64,000 nt of DNA. Source: Pseudomonas sediminis (GTDB lineage: Bacteria; Pseudomonadota; Gammaproteobacteria; Pseudomonadales; Pseudomonadaceae). Where the stretch lies: contig NZ_CP154631.1 in assembly GCF_039555755.1 (NCBI RefSeq), positions 1,612,001 through 1,676,000 of the forward strand, written 5' to 3'. The translations under genes and the position numbers were made by a program. Shown here piece after piece: positions 53,985 to 59,143 of this stretch. Positions within the stretch are counted from its first letter, which is position 1. Each line of letters begins with the position of its first letter. The notes beneath the pieces were generated by a model, which saw nothing but the letters and a program-made list of their open reading frames with translations, was not told where the DNA came from and ran no database searches.

Positions 53985-54566
53985 ATGAAGAAAAAACCGA
54001 CCGACCCCGCCCACATTCTTGATAACGCTCTGCAACTGGCCGACGTCTGCGGCTGGGAGCGCCTGCACCTGTTCGACGTCGCCGCCGCGCTCGATATTGG
54101 TCTGGACGATATCGCCCGCCATTACCGCGACAAGGATGACCTAGTGGAGGCTTGGTTCGACCGCGCCGACCTGGCCATGCTTGGTCACGCGAAAAATCCC
54201 GCTCTGCAGGGGCTGAACGCCGAACAGCGCCTGGAAAATTGCCTGCTGGCCTGGCTCGACAGCCTCGCCGCACATCGGGCCGTCACCGGCCAGATGCTGC
54301 TTTACAAGCTCGAGCCCGGGCATATCCACCTGCAGGTGCTCGGCCTGATGCGCGTCAGCCGCACCGTGCAGTGGTGGCGCGAAGCAGCCGGACGGCAAAG
54401 CCTGCACCTGCGCCGTATCGCCGAAGAAACCCTGCTCACCAGCGCCTACCTGCGCAGCTTCGTGCATTGGCTGCGTCATCCCAATGAAGACGCAGCAACC
54501 TTCCGCGCCTTTCTGCGTGGTCAACTACGCTGCGGCCCGTTGCCTCTGCTGCTACAACGCCCGTAG
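53985..54566 (+). CDS. TetR-like transcriptional regulator
   Basis: The 193-residue protein has a TetR-style N-terminus (AHILDNALQLADVCGWERLHLFDVAAALDIGLDDIARHYRDKDDLVEAWFDRADLAML) and an all-helical remainder with no family I recognise. The helix-turn-helix is shorter and less basic than usual, so DNA binding is likely but not certain. AGGG lies four bases before the ATG; an in-frame extension back to 53730 overlaps the preceding gene and is rejected. Target unknown. Confidence 0.72.
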   Translation: MKKKPTDPAHILDNALQLADVCGWERLHLFDVAAALDIGLDDIARHYRDKDDLVEAWFDRADLAMLGHAKNPALQGLNAEQRLENCLLAWLDSLAAHRAVTGQMLLYKLEPGHIHLQVLGLMRVSRTVQWWREAAGRQSLHLRRIAEETLLTSAYLRSFVHWLRHPNEDAATFRAFLRGQLRCGPLPLLLQRP

Positions 54567-54722
54567 GGTGCGCCATGCACACCAGGGGCCGCTTCGGTAC
54601 CAAGCCGGGCAGGCACGGCGCCATCCAGTGCAGGCAAAAGCCGGAAACATTCTGTCACTGGTCATGCCCCCCTATGACGGGCAAGATGCCGGCCAAGCTT
54701 TTCCATAAGAGAGAAAACCGTG

Positions 54723-55577
54723 ATGCAGCGTTTCCTCAGTATCGCCATGGTTCTGTGCCTGGCACTGACCTTCAGTTTCGAAGCCCACGCCAAGCGTTTT
54801 GGCGGTGGCAAATCCTTCGGCTCCGCGCCCAGCCACCAGACCCGTCAGGCCACACCGCCAGCGCAATCGGCTGCCCAGGCACCCGGTCGTCAACAGCCTG
54901 CCGCTGCCGCCAGCGGTGCTTCGCGCTGGCTCGGCCCGCTGGCCGGTCTGGCCGCGGGTGGCCTGCTGGCCTCGATGTTCATGGGTGACGGTTTCGAAGG
55001 CCTGCAGATCATGGACATGCTGATCTTCGGCCTGATCGCCTTCCTGCTGTTCCGCTTCCTCGCTGCCCGTCGCGCTCGCCAACAGCCGCAAATGGCCACT
55101 GCCGGTGCGCCGTACCAGCGTGAAATGCCGAACGCCGACAACGCCCCGGCCGCTGGCAGCAATATCTTCGGTGGTCGTCTGGCCTCGGCTGCTCCGGTGA
55201 TTAACGCACCGGCCTGGTTCAACGAGCAGAGCTTCATCGCCGCCGGTCGCGAGCACTTTATGAACCTGCAGCAGCACTGGGACGCCGACGAGATGGACAA
55301 GATCGCCGAGTTCGTCACTCCGCAACTGCTGGACTTCCTCAAGCGCGAGCGCGCCGAGCTGGGTGACGGCTTCCAGTCCACCTACGTCGATAACCTCGAC
55401 GTGCAACTCGATGGTGTCGACGACAACGCCGAGAAAACCATCGCCACCCTGACCTTCAGTGGTGTGTCGAAGACCTCGCGCTTCGACCAGGGCGAGCCGT
55501 TCAGCGAAAGCTGGCGCCTGGAGCGCGCCCAGGGCGACAACCAGCCCTGGCTGATCGCTGGCATTCGCCAGAACTGA
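54723..55577 (+). CDS. Tim44-like domain protein, exported
   Basis: A 284-residue protein: signal peptide MQRFLSIAMVLCLALTFSFEAHA, then KRFGGGKSFG, a Gln/Pro-rich linker, two hydrophobic segments (WLGPLAGLAAGGLLASMFM and IMDMLIFGLIAFLLFRFLAA) and a C-terminal Tim44/MlaC-NTF2-like domain (WFNEQSFIAAGREHFMNLQQHWDADEMDKIAEFVTPQLLDFLKRE). Bacterial homologues are inner-membrane proteins of unclear function. ATG at 54723 is preferred over the overlapping GTG at 54720. Its original terminator is interrupted by an IS element 31 bp beyond the stop codon. Confidence 0.85.
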   Translation: MQRFLSIAMVLCLALTFSFEAHAKRFGGGKSFGSAPSHQTRQATPPAQSAAQAPGRQQPAAAASGASRWLGPLAGLAAGGLLASMFMGDGFEGLQIMDMLIFGLIAFLLFRFLAARRARQQPQMATAGAPYQREMPNADNAPAAGSNIFGGRLASAAPVINAPAWFNEQSFIAAGREHFMNLQQHWDADEMDKIAEFVTPQLLDFLKRERAELGDGFQSTYVDNLDVQLDGVDDNAEKTIATLTFSGVSKTSRFDQGEPFSESWRLERAQGDNQPWLIAGIRQN

Positions 55578-55591
55578 TCGCTACGACGCAG

Positions 55592-55608
55592 AAAAAACCC
55601 GGGCTTGC
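55592..55608 (+). terminator. Left arm and loop of a terminator split by the IS element
   Basis: AAAAAACCCG at 55592-55601 pairs perfectly with CGGGTTTTTT at 57221-57230. The loop GGCTTGCT is interrupted by the IS element, with GCTTGC copied on both sides (55603-55608 and 57214-57219). Before insertion this was a ten-bp bidirectional terminator for the Tim44-like gene and the elaA-type gene. Confidence 0.85.
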
Positions 55609-55646
55609 AGACTGTGTGAAAACGTTCTGAACTGAACCGGTTCAAT

Positions 55647-55683
55647 ACAAACGCCTCGATTGATTCGGGGCGTTTGTGTTTTT
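55647..55683 (+). terminator. Terminator inside the IS, reading from the left
   Basis: ACAAACGCC pairs with GGCGTTTGT, followed by GTTTTT. It terminates plus-strand transcripts that enter the IS from the Tim44-like gene, opposite to the transposase. The self-complementary TGAACCGGTTCA at 55633-55644 lies beside it. Confidence 0.75.
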
Positions 55684-55711
55684 ACTGGTGCAATGATGCA
55701 AAGTGCAGCGC

Positions 55712-57136
55712 TCAGGTCAGCAGCTCGATCATGCGGCGTGCCCCGAGTACCGAAATAGCACGTTTGAGGTTGTAGGCTTGCACGGCCATCGCCATCTCAG
55801 CTCTCACCCCGCTGAAATGGCGCACTAGAAAACGACCGTTGCCCAGAATCCATTGTTTGAGATTGCCAAAAGGGTGCTCGACGATTGCTCGTCGCCGTCC
55901 CATCATCTCAGGATGAGTTTCGAGTCGTTTCTCCATCCGCGCGAACGCCTCTTCGTTGGGATGGCGGCTGATATGACGCCGTTGGGCCTGTGTGCACTTG
56001 GCTTTTAATGGGCAGTTCCCGCAGTCCTTGGCACGGGCTGCGTAAAGGCGAGTGCCACGATTGAGCTGTTTGAGCGACAGGGTCTTGCCCGCAGGACATT
56101 GGAAGCTGTCGGTCGCAGGATCGTAAGTGAAGTCCTGACGCGCAAACAGTGTGCCGCCGCCCTGGTTGTTGGGCGCGCGATTCACGGGGACGAAAGCCGT
56201 AATGCCCGCTTCTTCGCAGGCTTGAAACTGCGCCCCGTTGGAATAACCTGCATCAGCCGTGACGGTCAGCTCAGGCTGCTGCAGAACCGCATGAGTCGCT
56301 TTGGCCATCGGCTCCAACTGCTGGTTGTCGGTGCAGTCACTGGTCACTTCGTGATGCACGATCAGGCCATGCTCGGCATCGACAGCGCTCTGCACGTTGT
56401 AGGCCACGCAAGGGCTCTTGCCTGAGCAGCGCATCTTCTTGGCATCCGCTTCGCCTTCGACGAACTGTTCCAGGCCCTGCGCCTCCATCAGCGCTTTTAC
56501 GGTCAAGTTATCGGCATGGCGATCCTGTAGCTGGCGTAGCGCCTGTTTCACCGCTGCCCGGTCAATCGTCTCTTGCGCGTCTTGTGCATCACCCTCATCA
56601 AGCTGGGCCAGGTACTGGGCAATGTGTTTTTCCAGCTTCGCTTGTTGACGCTTGAGCTTCTCCACACTCAGGTGCTTGCGCAGCGAAGCTACCGCTTGGA
56701 ACTTGCTGCCATCGATGGCCACCAGCTCCCCACTGATCAAGCTCGCCTGGCGACAGAACTGGACGAAAGCCTTGCAAGTCGCCTGAAAGGCCACGCTGTT
56801 GTCTTTGCGAAAATCCGCGATGGTCTTGAAGTCCGGCGCCAGACGACCCAGCAACCACATCACCTCGATATTGCGCTGGCACTCCGCCTCCAATCGACGA
56901 GAGGAGCGAATGCGCTGGAAGTAGCCATATAGGTATAGCTTGAGCAAATCAGCTGGATCGTAGCCAGGGCGCCCAGTCTTGAGCGGCTCAGCCTTGCTGA
57001 ACCCCAGTACCTTCAGATCCAGACGAGCCACATAGGCCTCGATGACTCGAACTAGATGATCCTCAGGAACCAGCTCTTCCAATGTCGGCGGAAACAGGCT
57101 GCTTTGTTGCCGATCTTCACCTTGGATATAGCCCAT
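55712..57136 (-). CDS. IS1182-family transposase
   Basis: The 474-residue transposase starts GYIQGEDRQQSSLFPPTLEELVPEDHLVRVIEAYVARLD, typical of IS1182, with a DDE core: IDGSKFQA (Asp), VTADAGYSNG (Asp) and a C-terminal EHPFGNLKQW (Glu). A cysteine pair region PLKAKC and CGNC lies between them. The ATG at 57136 is just after a hairpin that buries the ribosome-binding sequence AGGGG; a TTG at 57145 in the stem is another possibility. No frameshift or truncation was seen, so it is probably active. Confidence 0.92.
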   Translation of the reverse strand: MGYIQGEDRQQSSLFPPTLEELVPEDHLVRVIEAYVARLDLKVLGFSKAEPLKTGRPGYDPADLLKLYLYGYFQRIRSSRRLEAECQRNIEVMWLLGRLAPDFKTIADFRKDNSVAFQATCKAFVQFCRQASLISGELVAIDGSKFQAVASLRKHLSVEKLKRQQAKLEKHIAQYLAQLDEGDAQDAQETIDRAAVKQALRQLQDRHADNLTVKALMEAQGLEQFVEGEADAKKMRCSGKSPCVAYNVQSAVDAEHGLIVHHEVTSDCTDNQQLEPMAKATHAVLQQPELTVTADAGYSNGAQFQACEEAGITAFVPVNRAPNNQGGGTLFARQDFTYDPATDSFQCPAGKTLSLKQLNRGTRLYAARAKDCGNCPLKAKCTQAQRRHISRHPNEEAFARMEKRLETHPEMMGRRRAIVEHPFGNLKQWILGNGRFLVRHFSGVRAEMAMAVQAYNLKRAISVLGARRMIELLT

Positions 57137-57140
57137 AAAC

Positions 57141-57174
57141 GACAATGCCCCTATCGACCGATAGAGGCATTGTC
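57141..57174 (-). promoter_or_regulatory. Translation-blocking hairpin before the transposase start
   Basis: GACAATGCCCCTATCG pairs with CGATAGAGGCATTGTC, 15 of 16 pairs, with a two-base loop. On the minus strand the AGGGG ribosome-binding sequence falls in the stem, so transcripts entering from outside would fold and hide it, whereas one started inside the element would not. Such structures limit transposase made by read-through in other IS families. Confidence 0.65.
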
Positions 57175-57219
57175 TTCACCTTGCACTCAGACTGCTAGGT
57201 TTTCACACAGTCTGCTTGC

Positions 57220-57230
57220 TCGGGTTTTTT
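57220..57230 (+). terminator. Right arm of the split terminator
   Basis: CGGGTTTTTT, preceded by T, completes the stem begun at 55592-55601; see that entry. Confidence 0.8.
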
Positions 57231-57250
57231 ATTGCGGCATTTGCCGGTTA

Positions 57251-57299
57251 TCGCGGCTGAAGCCGCTCCTACGACGTGGGAGGCGCTTTAGCGGCGACG
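57251..57299. repeat. REP pair
   Basis: TCGCGGCTGAAGCCGCTCCT then, after ACGAC, GTGGGAGGCGCTTTAGCGGC. Two REP units in opposite orientation, in the gap after the elaA-type gene. Confidence 0.7.
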
Positions 57300-57310
57300 T
57301 CCCGTCCCCA

Positions 57311-57781
57311 TCACGACAGATCCTTAGCAGCCCGGCGCATGCCGATATGCGGGATGTCGTCCTCCAGATACACCTCGGTCACCGCCTCGAAGCCATAACG
57401 CCCGTAGTAGCCCTGCAGGTGCGCCTGCGCCGACAGATAAACCGACAAACCCGACCAACGCTGAGCACACTCGACCAGCGCCCGCTCCATCAGCCGATGG
57501 CCCAGTCCGCTGCCGCGCGCCCGCTCGGCGATCACCACCCGACCGATCACCACCTCGCCGTCCATGCGCTGCGGATCGAGCAAGCGCAGATAACCCACCA
57601 GCCCAGATTCATCACGCGCCAGCAGGTGGCAGGTGTCACCGACCAGGTCCTGGCCATCGGTTTCCAGATAGGGGCAGTTCTGCTCGACCACGAACACCTG
57701 GGTGCGCAGTGCCAGCAGTTCATAGAGGGTCGCAGCATCGAGTTCGCTGTGGTGCAGGCAGTGCCAGGTAAGAGATGACAT
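57311..57781 (-). CDS. elaA: ElaA-type GNAT acetyltransferase
   Basis: A 156-residue protein with the ElaA pattern: TWHCLHHSELDAATLYELLALRTQVFVVEQNCPYLETDGQDLVGDTCHLLAR and GRVVIAERARGSGLGHRLMERALVECA (acetyl-CoA loop RARGSGLG), HLQGYYGRYGFEAVTEVYLEDDIPHIGM at the end. Function and substrate are unknown. GGAG lies six bases before the ATG at 57781; the frame reaches back to 57868 unsupported. Its transcription terminator was split by the IS, so read-through may now reach the transposase. Confidence 0.87.
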   Translation of the reverse strand: MSSLTWHCLHHSELDAATLYELLALRTQVFVVEQNCPYLETDGQDLVGDTCHLLARDESGLVGYLRLLDPQRMDGEVVIGRVVIAERARGSGLGHRLMERALVECAQRWSGLSVYLSAQAHLQGYYGRYGFEAVTEVYLEDDIPHIGMRRAAKDLS

Positions 57782-57885
57782 GAAAGGCTCCGCAAAAGCG
57801 CCAGTATGCAGTGGCAACGACATGTTTTCATTCTGCCGGCCAGCTACTGTATAAAGCCGATCCCCCAAGATGAGGAGCCGACGCC

Positions 57886-58293
57886 GTGGAAGAAGTCATC
57901 GAACAGCTGCGCGAACTCAACGAGCCGGTACCGGTACCGCTGGAGCTGCCGGAAGAAGAGACCCTGGTGGAGATTCAGGAGCAGATCCTCATCCACTTGC
58001 CCTTCGAGCTGCGCGAATACCTGCTCAAGGTCAGTGATGTGGTCTACGGCCGCCTGGAGCCGGTGACCGCCAGTGATCCGCAATCGCACACCTACCTGCC
58101 GGAAGTCGCCTCGGTGGCCTGGGATCTCGGCCTGCCGCGCGACCTGGTGCCACTGTGCCAGGACGGCCGCGATTACTACGCGGTGGACGTGGAAGGCCAG
58201 GTCTGGCTGTGGGATGGCGACGAAGGCGAGCTGACCGACGAAAGCTGGGACTCGGTCTGGCACTGGTGCCGTGACGTCTGGCTGGAAAGCTAA
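57886..58293 (+). CDS. SMI1/KNR4-family (SUKH) protein
   Basis: A 135-residue acidic protein with EEVIEQLRELNEPVPVPLELPEEETLVEIQEQILIHLPFELREYLLKVSDVVYGRLEPV, the N-terminal helix pattern of the SMI1/KNR4 fold, then YLPEVASVAWDLGLPRDLVPLCQDGRDYYAVDVEGQVWLWDGDE. GTG at 57886 follows GGAG by about ten bases. In polymorphic toxin loci SUKH proteins are immunity proteins, but no toxin gene is adjacent, and this one is the common solitary pseudomonad form. Role unknown. Confidence 0.83.
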   Translation: MEEVIEQLRELNEPVPVPLELPEEETLVEIQEQILIHLPFELREYLLKVSDVVYGRLEPVTASDPQSHTYLPEVASVAWDLGLPRDLVPLCQDGRDYYAVDVEGQVWLWDGDEGELTDESWDSVWHWCRDVWLES

Positions 58294-58325
58294 GCAGACC
58301 GCCGCCGATCAGGAAACCGGCCACT

Positions 58326-58483
58326 GTAGGGCGGACTCAGGAGCGCAGCGAACAGTCCGCCAAATAGGGCGAGAATCGCACTCCACGTATTCCATGAGCC
58401 CGCAACGGCGTACCGCTTCGCGAACGGATCGCCGCCCGGTACGCCCTGCAGTGCGACAACATGGACAGCCGAGTCCGCCCTAC
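58326..58483. repeat. Inverted repeat GTAGGGCGGACTC
   Basis: GTAGGGCGGACTC at 58326-58338 and its exact reverse complement GAGTCCGCCCTAC at 58471-58483, separated by about 130 bp, between two converging genes. It may be a pair of REP-type units with a spacer, or the ends of a small decayed element. Confidence 0.6.
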
Positions 58484-58489
58484 GGCCAT

Positions 58490-59143
58490 TCACACCTCGC
58501 CCTGCTCCAACGCCAGCAGGTTGAGCAGAAAGCGCGCGAAGTAAAGCAGATCCTGTTCCATCGCCTGGCGAGCGCCCTTGGCATCGCCGGCTTCGATAGC
58601 GGCAAAGGCGTCTTCATGAAAGTCATTGAGCCGCAGCGACAGGTCGGCGCCGGTGAACAGCCGGTTGAAGAAGGGGCCGATCTGCAGCCATAGCGACTCG
58701 ATCGAACGCAGCAACACCGGGTTGCCACATGCACCGTACAAATGCAGGTGAAACTGGCTGTTGGCATTGAGGTAGTCCTGCACCTGGCGCTGCTCGATGG
58801 CGGCGTCCATGCGCTGCACGCAGTCACGCAGCAGGGCCAGATCGCTGCTGTCCAGGCGCGGCGTGGCCAGCTCCACTGCCAGGCCTTCCAGCGCCAGGCG
58901 CACCTGAAAGATGTTTTCGTAGCGCTCACGGGTCATCGACGGGACTCGCACCGAGCGCTGCTGCTCGCCCTCCAGCGCGCCCTCGGCCACAAGCCGCTGC
59001 AGGGCCGCGCGAACCGGCATCGGGCTGGTGCCCCATTCGGTGGCCAAGTCGCGGATCTTCAACCGCTCCCCAGGTTGGAAACGTCCGACCAACAGCCCTG
59101 AGCGGATGTTCTGATACAGCTGCTCCTGCAGATTGTCAGCCAT
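58490..59143 (-). CDS. GntR-family regulator with FCD domain
   Basis: A 217-residue regulator: N-terminal winged helix LQEQLYQNIRSGLLVGRFQPGERLKIRDLATEWGTSPMPVRAALQRLVAEGALEGEQQRSVRVPSMT and a helical FCD sensor domain (YENIFQVRLALEGLAVELATPRL, then FHLHLYGACGNPVLLRSIESLW with metal-type His). It is divergent from the aminotransferase and probably binds the twin palindromes in the shared promoter region. GGAGG precedes the ATG at 59143. It may be the PA5525-type regulator of the PA5522-PA5523 genes (memory). Confidence 0.87.
   Translation of the reverse strand: MADNLQEQLYQNIRSGLLVGRFQPGERLKIRDLATEWGTSPMPVRAALQRLVAEGALEGEQQRSVRVPSMTRERYENIFQVRLALEGLAVELATPRLDSSDLALLRDCVQRMDAAIEQRQVQDYLNANSQFHLHLYGACGNPVLLRSIESLWLQIGPFFNRLFTGADLSLRLNDFHEDAFAAIEAGDAKGARQAMEQDLLYFARFLLNLLALEQGEV

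Follow-up and report, generated by a model that had tools for sequence, protein, structure and literature searches.

Results

An IS1182-family element in the loop of a predicted terminator

The window (the whole 64,000-nucleotide stretch of Pseudomonas sediminis DNA that we analysed) carries a 1,607-bp insertion sequence (IS) between a Tim44-like domain gene and a convergent GNAT acetyltransferase gene. Element ends and target duplications were set by comparing copies, terminal repeats by comparing ends, terminator arms by comparing flanks and the transposase gene from the open reading frame list and a domain search. The features are listed below; those given without a strand are unstranded.

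54720–55577, + strand: Tim44-like domain gene whose terminator is interrupted (PF04280, 30.1 bits, cut-off 29.6)
55592–55603: left arm of the split intrinsic terminator (AAAAAACCCGGG), also supported by the empty site in G064, G012 and G255
55604–55607: left copy of the target duplication CTTG, which is the terminator loop
55608–57214, − strand: IS1182-family insertion sequence, 1,607 bp
55608–55623: left terminal inverted repeat (CAGACTGTGTGAAAAC)
55644–55683, + strand: terminator-like hairpin (55644–55680) plus U run inside the left end (fold −24.7 kcal/mol)
55712–57145, − strand: transposase, 477 amino acids as listed from TTG, with DUF772 and DDE_Tnp_1 domains
57141–57174, − strand: hairpin inside the right end, just 5′ of the transposase ATG, with a weak U run here (fold −25.3 kcal/mol)
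57199–57214: right terminal inverted repeat (GTTTTCACACAGTCTG)
57215–57218: right copy of the target duplication CTTG
57219–57230: right arm of the split terminator (CTCGGGTTTTTT)
57311–57868, − strand: GNAT acetyltransferase gene, convergent to the Tim44-like gene (NF007644/PRK10314, just above cut-off)

The element has perfect 16-bp terminal repeats and a single transposase gene, and members of the IS1182 family are about 1.3–2 kb long. Its transposase scored 418.2 bits against the curated IS1182 model NF033551 (cut-off 270), which bears out the family assignment made in an earlier note on this DNA, and it exceeded the cut-offs for PF05598, PF01609 and PF13751 (DUF772 plus DDE type). An alternative start is the in-frame ATG at 57136–57134. 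Among solved structures the transposase profile matched only TAL repeat proteins; no stretch passed alone, and we rejected these matches as spurious. The same genome holds five full copies, one broken copy, nine full copies of a 74% identical relative and eight short fragments. Near-identical copies at different sites imply that an element with predicted DDE activity has been mobile recently. In the broken copy (L006; query positions 683–1605), the surviving end adjoins half of a terminator-like arm. A transposase with 98% identity is found in a terminator-type loop on a large Pseudomonas fulva plasmid (L365; record NZ_CP064948), which suggests plasmid-borne movement of the element between species.

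Removal of the IS and one repeat leaves AAAAAACCCGGGCTTGCTCGGGTTTTTT at the insertion site. The flanks AAAAAACCCG (55592–55601) and CGGGTTTTTT (57221–57230) are fully complementary, forming the perfect stem that the earlier note had described, and the rejoined site with its neighbouring bases folds at −15.4 kcal/mol into a 12-pair stem (including one G–U pair) that is capped by the loop CUUG and has a T run after it. The target thus lies downstream of the Tim44-like gene and combines a GC-rich hairpin with a T run behind it, as expected of an intrinsic terminator, and we predict it to be one. The repeat had been read as GCTTGC; the true duplication is CTTG, and we assign the outer C and G to the ends of the IS because other copies share them (for example, TAGAA-C...G-TAGAA in L003). 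The loop had been given as eight bases, which stands under strict Watson–Crick pairing only and gives way to four in the empty sites of three relatives, which read CCCGGG[CTTG]CCCGGG. A simple terminator scan of 54500–58500, with or without the IS ends, returned no site and also missed the hairpins of the IS itself; a split hairpin is expected to escape such a scan. Close by, a REP-like repeat with GCGGCTGAAGCCGCTCCTAC lies at 57249–57304, about 40 bp from the insertion, and a gene of the SMI1/KNR4 (SUKH_5) family (57886–58293) adjoins the GNAT gene.

Relatives provided the empty site. A genome labelled as the same species (G064) has an IS-free, intact terminator, AACAAACCCGGG[CTTG]CCCGGGTTTTTTT, in a locus that reads AACAAACCCGGGCTTGCCCGGGTTTTTTT; G012 and G255 share the empty site AAGAAACCCGGGCTTGCCCGGGTTTCTT, and G270 retains the right part of the site next to a different left neighbour. 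The terminator is therefore present where the IS is absent and, together with the complementary arms and the rejoined fold, this confirms the proposed insertion inside a terminator loop. The Tim44-like sequence was present in 25 of the 38 relatives searched, our genome being counted among the 25. All of the other 24 have a hairpin that begins 14 to 32 nt past its stop codon (stem score 8–19), and none of them has an IS end within 120 nt of that stop. The neighbour on the far side often differs, as the GNAT gene was found in only 2 of these 24 within the stretch examined.

Two further sites from the same genome (L002 and L010) were compared with G064, G255, G270 and G012. At the L002 site, the terminator is intact in G064 (loop CTCG) and G255 (loop CGAG) and imperfect in G270; in G012 the same terminator holds a 1,193-bp IS copy (L351) with the duplication CAAG. 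The loop differs, so the G012 insertion is probably independent of the one in our genome. At the L010 site, the terminator is intact in all four relatives, with the loop CATG or TATG. We also observed that the loop at the L002 site is CTCG in G000 and CAAG in G012 while the same-species G064 is empty, and that one terminator apparently holds different elements in two species, L058 in G012 and L060 in G270, whose flanks are nearly identical. The L002/L351 and L058/L060 cases suggest recurrent use of particular terminators across species.

Most other copies lie in terminator-type hairpins

We scored hairpins as the number of pairs minus twice the number of mismatches, ungapped, with the centre within 1.5 nt of the duplication. 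In our genome all 14 two-ended copies (of the IS and its 74% relative) lie in terminator-type inverted repeats: 13 of them score at least 8 and all 14 at least 5, and in 9 the duplication is exactly the loop. To widen the sample, we searched 298 congeneric genomes at the protein level and obtained matches in 82, with at most five candidates scored per genome, so that copy numbers are lower bounds. Flanks were taken from 80 of the matches listed and later from 8 more. Sites from the 82 genomes, from named genomes and from later additions amounted to 69 distinct two-ended sites with a matching end type, or 68 once an element of a sister clade (L242) had been removed. Sites that share the adjoining 20 bp on each side were treated as one; any orthologous insertions with a difference within those 20 bp would count twice. 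The 68 leave out copies at contig ends (L028, L061, L169, L175 and L285), one-ended copies such as L006, and copies with off-pattern ends or length (L085/L282, L174, L179 and the 1,193-bp copy in L351). By eye, the flanks of L085/L282 form a hairpin with the loop TATCA. More distant relatives in Shinella, Methylobacterium and Acidobacteriaceae, also uncounted, have flanks that by eye are partly hairpin-like, with no clear duplication.

At 54 of the 68 distinct sites (79%) the hairpin score is at least 8, and at 60 it is at least 5. Such scores are rare by chance: in the window as a whole, 97 of about 62,000 positions (0.16%) score at least 8, and with right arms swapped among the sites 5.7 of the 68 on average, and at most 13, reached that score. 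Intergenic DNA in the window, defined by the absence of open reading frames in six frames, gave 217 positions, too few to be informative, with none at score 8. A duplication of 3–6 bp is present at 65 of the 68 sites, and both arms are retained at most of them. Four plasmid copies, including ISPpu20, which were examined among 19 records with at least 60% identity and added afterwards, all lie in terminator-type hairpins (score 10–12), three with a duplication that is exactly the loop. The flanks of other copies are thus heavily biased to terminator-type hairpins, which was the check that the earlier note had proposed.

Eight sites score below 5 and were counted as misses: L073, L167, L170 and five from a single genome, G237 (L086–L090). 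Within the latter, L088–L090 lie in imperfect REP-like hairpins, L087 has an off-centre terminator-like stem and one has no hairpin. The three sites L088, L089 and L090, whose elements fall inside the hairpin-using clade, share the REP-like repeat GGAGCTGCC-GAAG-GCTGCGATC, so that this lineage may have shifted to another class of target.

The target duplication tends to follow the loop

Overall, the duplication is exactly the loop at 40 of the 60 hairpin sites. When duplications of 4 or 5 bp are compared, the longer one occurs at 5 of 8 loops of 5 nt versus 2 of 40 loops of 4 nt (P = 6 × 10−4); with the four plasmid sites the counts become 8 of 11 versus 2 of 40 (P = 1 × 10−5). Parity follows the same trend across all loop sizes, with an odd duplication in 10 of 16 odd loops versus 4 of 47 even loops. 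Loops of 3, 6 or 8 nt mostly have a duplication of 4 or 5 bp, with one of 3 bp, which indicates that the stagger of the enzyme itself also limits the duplication. Single exceptions are a 4-nt loop with a 6-bp duplication and L252, which has no duplication; the plasmid site L367 has a 3-nt loop. On the simplest reading, the complex would be centred on the dyad and a stagger of 4 or 5 would be selected to fit.

These data bear on the choice that the earlier note had left between target preference for hairpins and neutral survival, in which insertion is random and only harmless insertions persist. By reasoning, insertion into a terminator loop is probably cheap, as neutral survival would have it. 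Against this, as a rough bound, if intergenic DNA is a tenth of the window and all 97 high-scoring positions are intergenic, about 1.5% of sites at most would be expected in such hairpins versus the 79% seen. Furthermore, survival cannot set an exact loop position with a loop-sized duplication, as found at the 40 sites; we therefore reject it as the main cause and give it almost no credence. Target preference over neutral survival is strongly supported by the sequence comparisons, given that every two-ended copy in our genome lies in such a hairpin.

Structure, base sequence or transcription as the cue

A preference for hairpins could arise without the hairpin playing any role. Each transposase protomer might read a half-site in duplex DNA, made up of a GG-rich arm with a T tract about 7–8 bp out, and two such half-sites, inverted and 4–5 bp apart, would make terminators merely the commonest DNA with the required layout. 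A half-site pattern is indeed present, with G at position 1 in 86% and T at positions 8–11 in 86–92%. We measured covariation between arms at the 65 of 68 sites with a duplication of at least 3 bp. Own arms are complementary at 6.42 of 8 positions versus 4.03 (s.d. 0.16) for exchanged arms; none of 2,000 shuffles reached the observed value (z about 15), and a match so much better than that of exchanged arms speaks against duplex reading.

A sister clade behaves differently. Its transposases are about 43% identical and also match NF033551 (495 bits for L104), and its elements have similar ends and a 4-bp duplication; unlike the hairpin clade, they use a fixed palindromic motif and show no arm complementarity beyond it. 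At 80 sites, selected for an exact 4-bp duplication, complementarity was 3.91 versus 3.90 for exchanged arms (z about 0). In the half-site, position 8 is G in 96%, position 10 is C in 89% and position 6 is C in 82%; the palindromic target is approximately GNCYGCTWTNGGCC/GGCCNAWAGCRGNC, and the duplication is GGCC, GACC or GGTC at 67 of the 80 sites. Motif-using loci of this clade (among L091–L163 and L181–L243) come from Alpha-, Beta- and Gammaproteobacteria. That the sister clade apparently works by half-sites lends duplex reading some plausibility for the hairpin clade too.

We also compared sites with an A tract, a GC-rich core and a T tract, a layout that, as defined, 18 of the 68 sites lack. 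Hairpins formed in 46 of the 50 targeted layouts versus 29 of 134 in the background. Hairpin-free layouts were thus common in the background (105 of 134) and rare among targets (4 of 50), contrary to duplex reading, although the difference is smaller when cores are very rich in GC: at a GC content of at least 0.8, 30 of 33 targeted versus 18 of 28 background layouts were hairpins (P = 0.014). An initial background set, which was smaller and had many terminators of Tim44 genes, contained hairpins in 22 of 51 layouts. The spacing of A and T tracts was rejected as the sole cause on the 46 of 50 versus 29 of 134 count, with a weaker case against it for these very GC-rich cores.

A hairpin alone does not seem to suffice. 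A REP-like repeat (GCGGC-TGAA-GCCGC core) has 99 matches in our genome at up to two mismatches (55 forward and 44 reverse), the one at 57249–57304 among them, versus 4 for a reversed control (1 and 3), and none of the 14 insertion points in this genome lies within such a core. That these hairpins go unused implies that the A and T tracts, or terminator status, also matter; AT-rich flanks may ease cruciform extrusion, a possible reason for a role of the tracts. Their neglect would also be expected under duplex reading. On balance we regard duplex reading as unlikely, while granting it real weight.

Terminator status points to a further possibility, namely that the transposase is attracted by RNA polymerase that has paused or is terminating, or by the hairpin in the RNA, rather than by a structure in DNA. 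Targets are mostly of the terminator type and the REP-like hairpins of the same genome are spared, which fits; the orientation of the IS nevertheless shows no clear bias with respect to which T run is longer (24 versus 17, with 18 ties, at 59 sites), most duplications sit symmetrically on the dyad and the three G237 sites lie in REP-like hairpins. Such transcription-led targeting appears improbable. Recognition of DNA structure rather than base sequence by the transposase is the likely reading.

In a quick tree of 47 transposases, a branch with SH-aLRT support of 100 sets the motif users apart, and the REP users of G237 fall inside the hairpin side. The tree was midpoint-drawn and built without ISSep1, a Bradyrhizobium IS1182 element and L173; of its 42 inner branches, 16 are open, and a program warning concerned long branches meeting near the split.

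Hairpins inside the element ends

The insertion had been thought to leave both neighbouring genes without their terminator. This is doubtful, as the IS brings predicted hairpins at both ends, and the left-end hairpin with its U run faces transcription coming from the Tim44-like gene. End hairpins are a general feature: a stem score of at least 9 (G–T allowed) was found at the left end of 43 of 43 distinct element bodies and at the right end of 41 of 43. These hairpins probably mean that the host terminator has been exchanged for another and not simply lost, and they probably also keep outside transcripts out of the transposase gene.

Discussion

We consider it highly probable, from comparison of natural insertion sites, that the IS1182 transposase of this Pseudomonas lineage picks intrinsic-terminator hairpins, centres on their dyad and duplicates the loop. 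The transposase would select a terminator hairpin and insert centred on the dyad of its inverted repeat, and the two strand cuts would fall at the loop edges, in most cases with a stagger of 4 or 5 bp, so that the loop would become the target duplication and the IS would be flanked by one arm on each side. We infer that the transposase senses a hairpin or cruciform, aided by A and T tracts, rather than base sequence, and that the end hairpins could partly stand in for the terminator that is lost and protect the transposase gene against transcription from outside. A broader account is an even bet: a DDE lineage in which the hairpin target would be read by structure and the loop would set a 4- or 5-bp stagger, next to a sister clade reading sequence, with the split in the tree marking the switch and the host terminator swapped for that of the element. 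If true, the split would mark a change from sequence to structure recognition within one enzyme family. Sixty natural hairpin targets with exact positions, an effect of loop length, empty sites from the same species and a sequence-reading sister clade make the question testable. Terminator loops, combined with the terminator-like hairpins of the element itself, suggest a possible low-cost route to several IS copies per genome.

The closest IS-named element among the matches listed is ISPpu20 of plasmid pWW53, a distinct member of the IS1182 family with a 68% identical transposase; its own copy likewise lies in a terminator-type loop, with the 5-bp duplication TTAAT. A search by name found no paper on ISPpu20 in the open-access literature. 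Records annotated as ISPa7 were 44.5–44.7% identical among the matches listed, near the level of the sister clade. ISSep1, the only staphylococcal IS1182 element among those matches, has a 24.5% identical transposase, a figure that does not apply to IS1272 itself.

Group IIC introns also insert at terminator stem-loops, as this IS does. They differ in being RNA-using retroelements with unrelated machinery and no loop duplication.

The nearest parallels are IS1272 and TnSha1 of staphylococci, which are distant members of the same family and use hairpin targets that share no common sequence, several of them terminators. There, TnSha1 is described as always entering hairpins and IS1272 as doing alike; five of seven sequenced targets were terminators confirmed by RNA sequencing, and the hairpin was partly deleted with no duplication (PMC4923244). 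Three new IS1272 insertions are described as replacing inverted repeats, with older copies at inverted-repeat or 'non-IR' targets, and that paper draws loop duplication only as a hypothetical pathway and cites a review by Siguier and colleagues for palindrome targeting by some IS1182 members (PMC5678879). Passages on IS1182 elements of Paracoccus mention a 4-bp duplication and no hairpin targets (PMC3281130, PMC11578231). The Pseudomonas element shares the hairpin target with IS1272 and TnSha1, as seen at 60 of 68 sites and at the empty sites, and does not show their deletion without duplication. In the open-access literature, covered mostly as titles and abstract openings and apart from subscription papers and ISfinder notes, we recognised no IS that duplicates a terminator loop, and structure-guided targeting by ordinary DDE transposases has, in that same literature, apparently been reported for few elements. 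Within this scope, targeting of terminator hairpins is itself already published for IS1272 and TnSha1, and the loop-duplicating mode looks new: IS1272 and TnSha1 remove part or all of the hairpin and make no duplication, whereas the Pseudomonas element keeps the hairpin, splits its loop and duplicates it.
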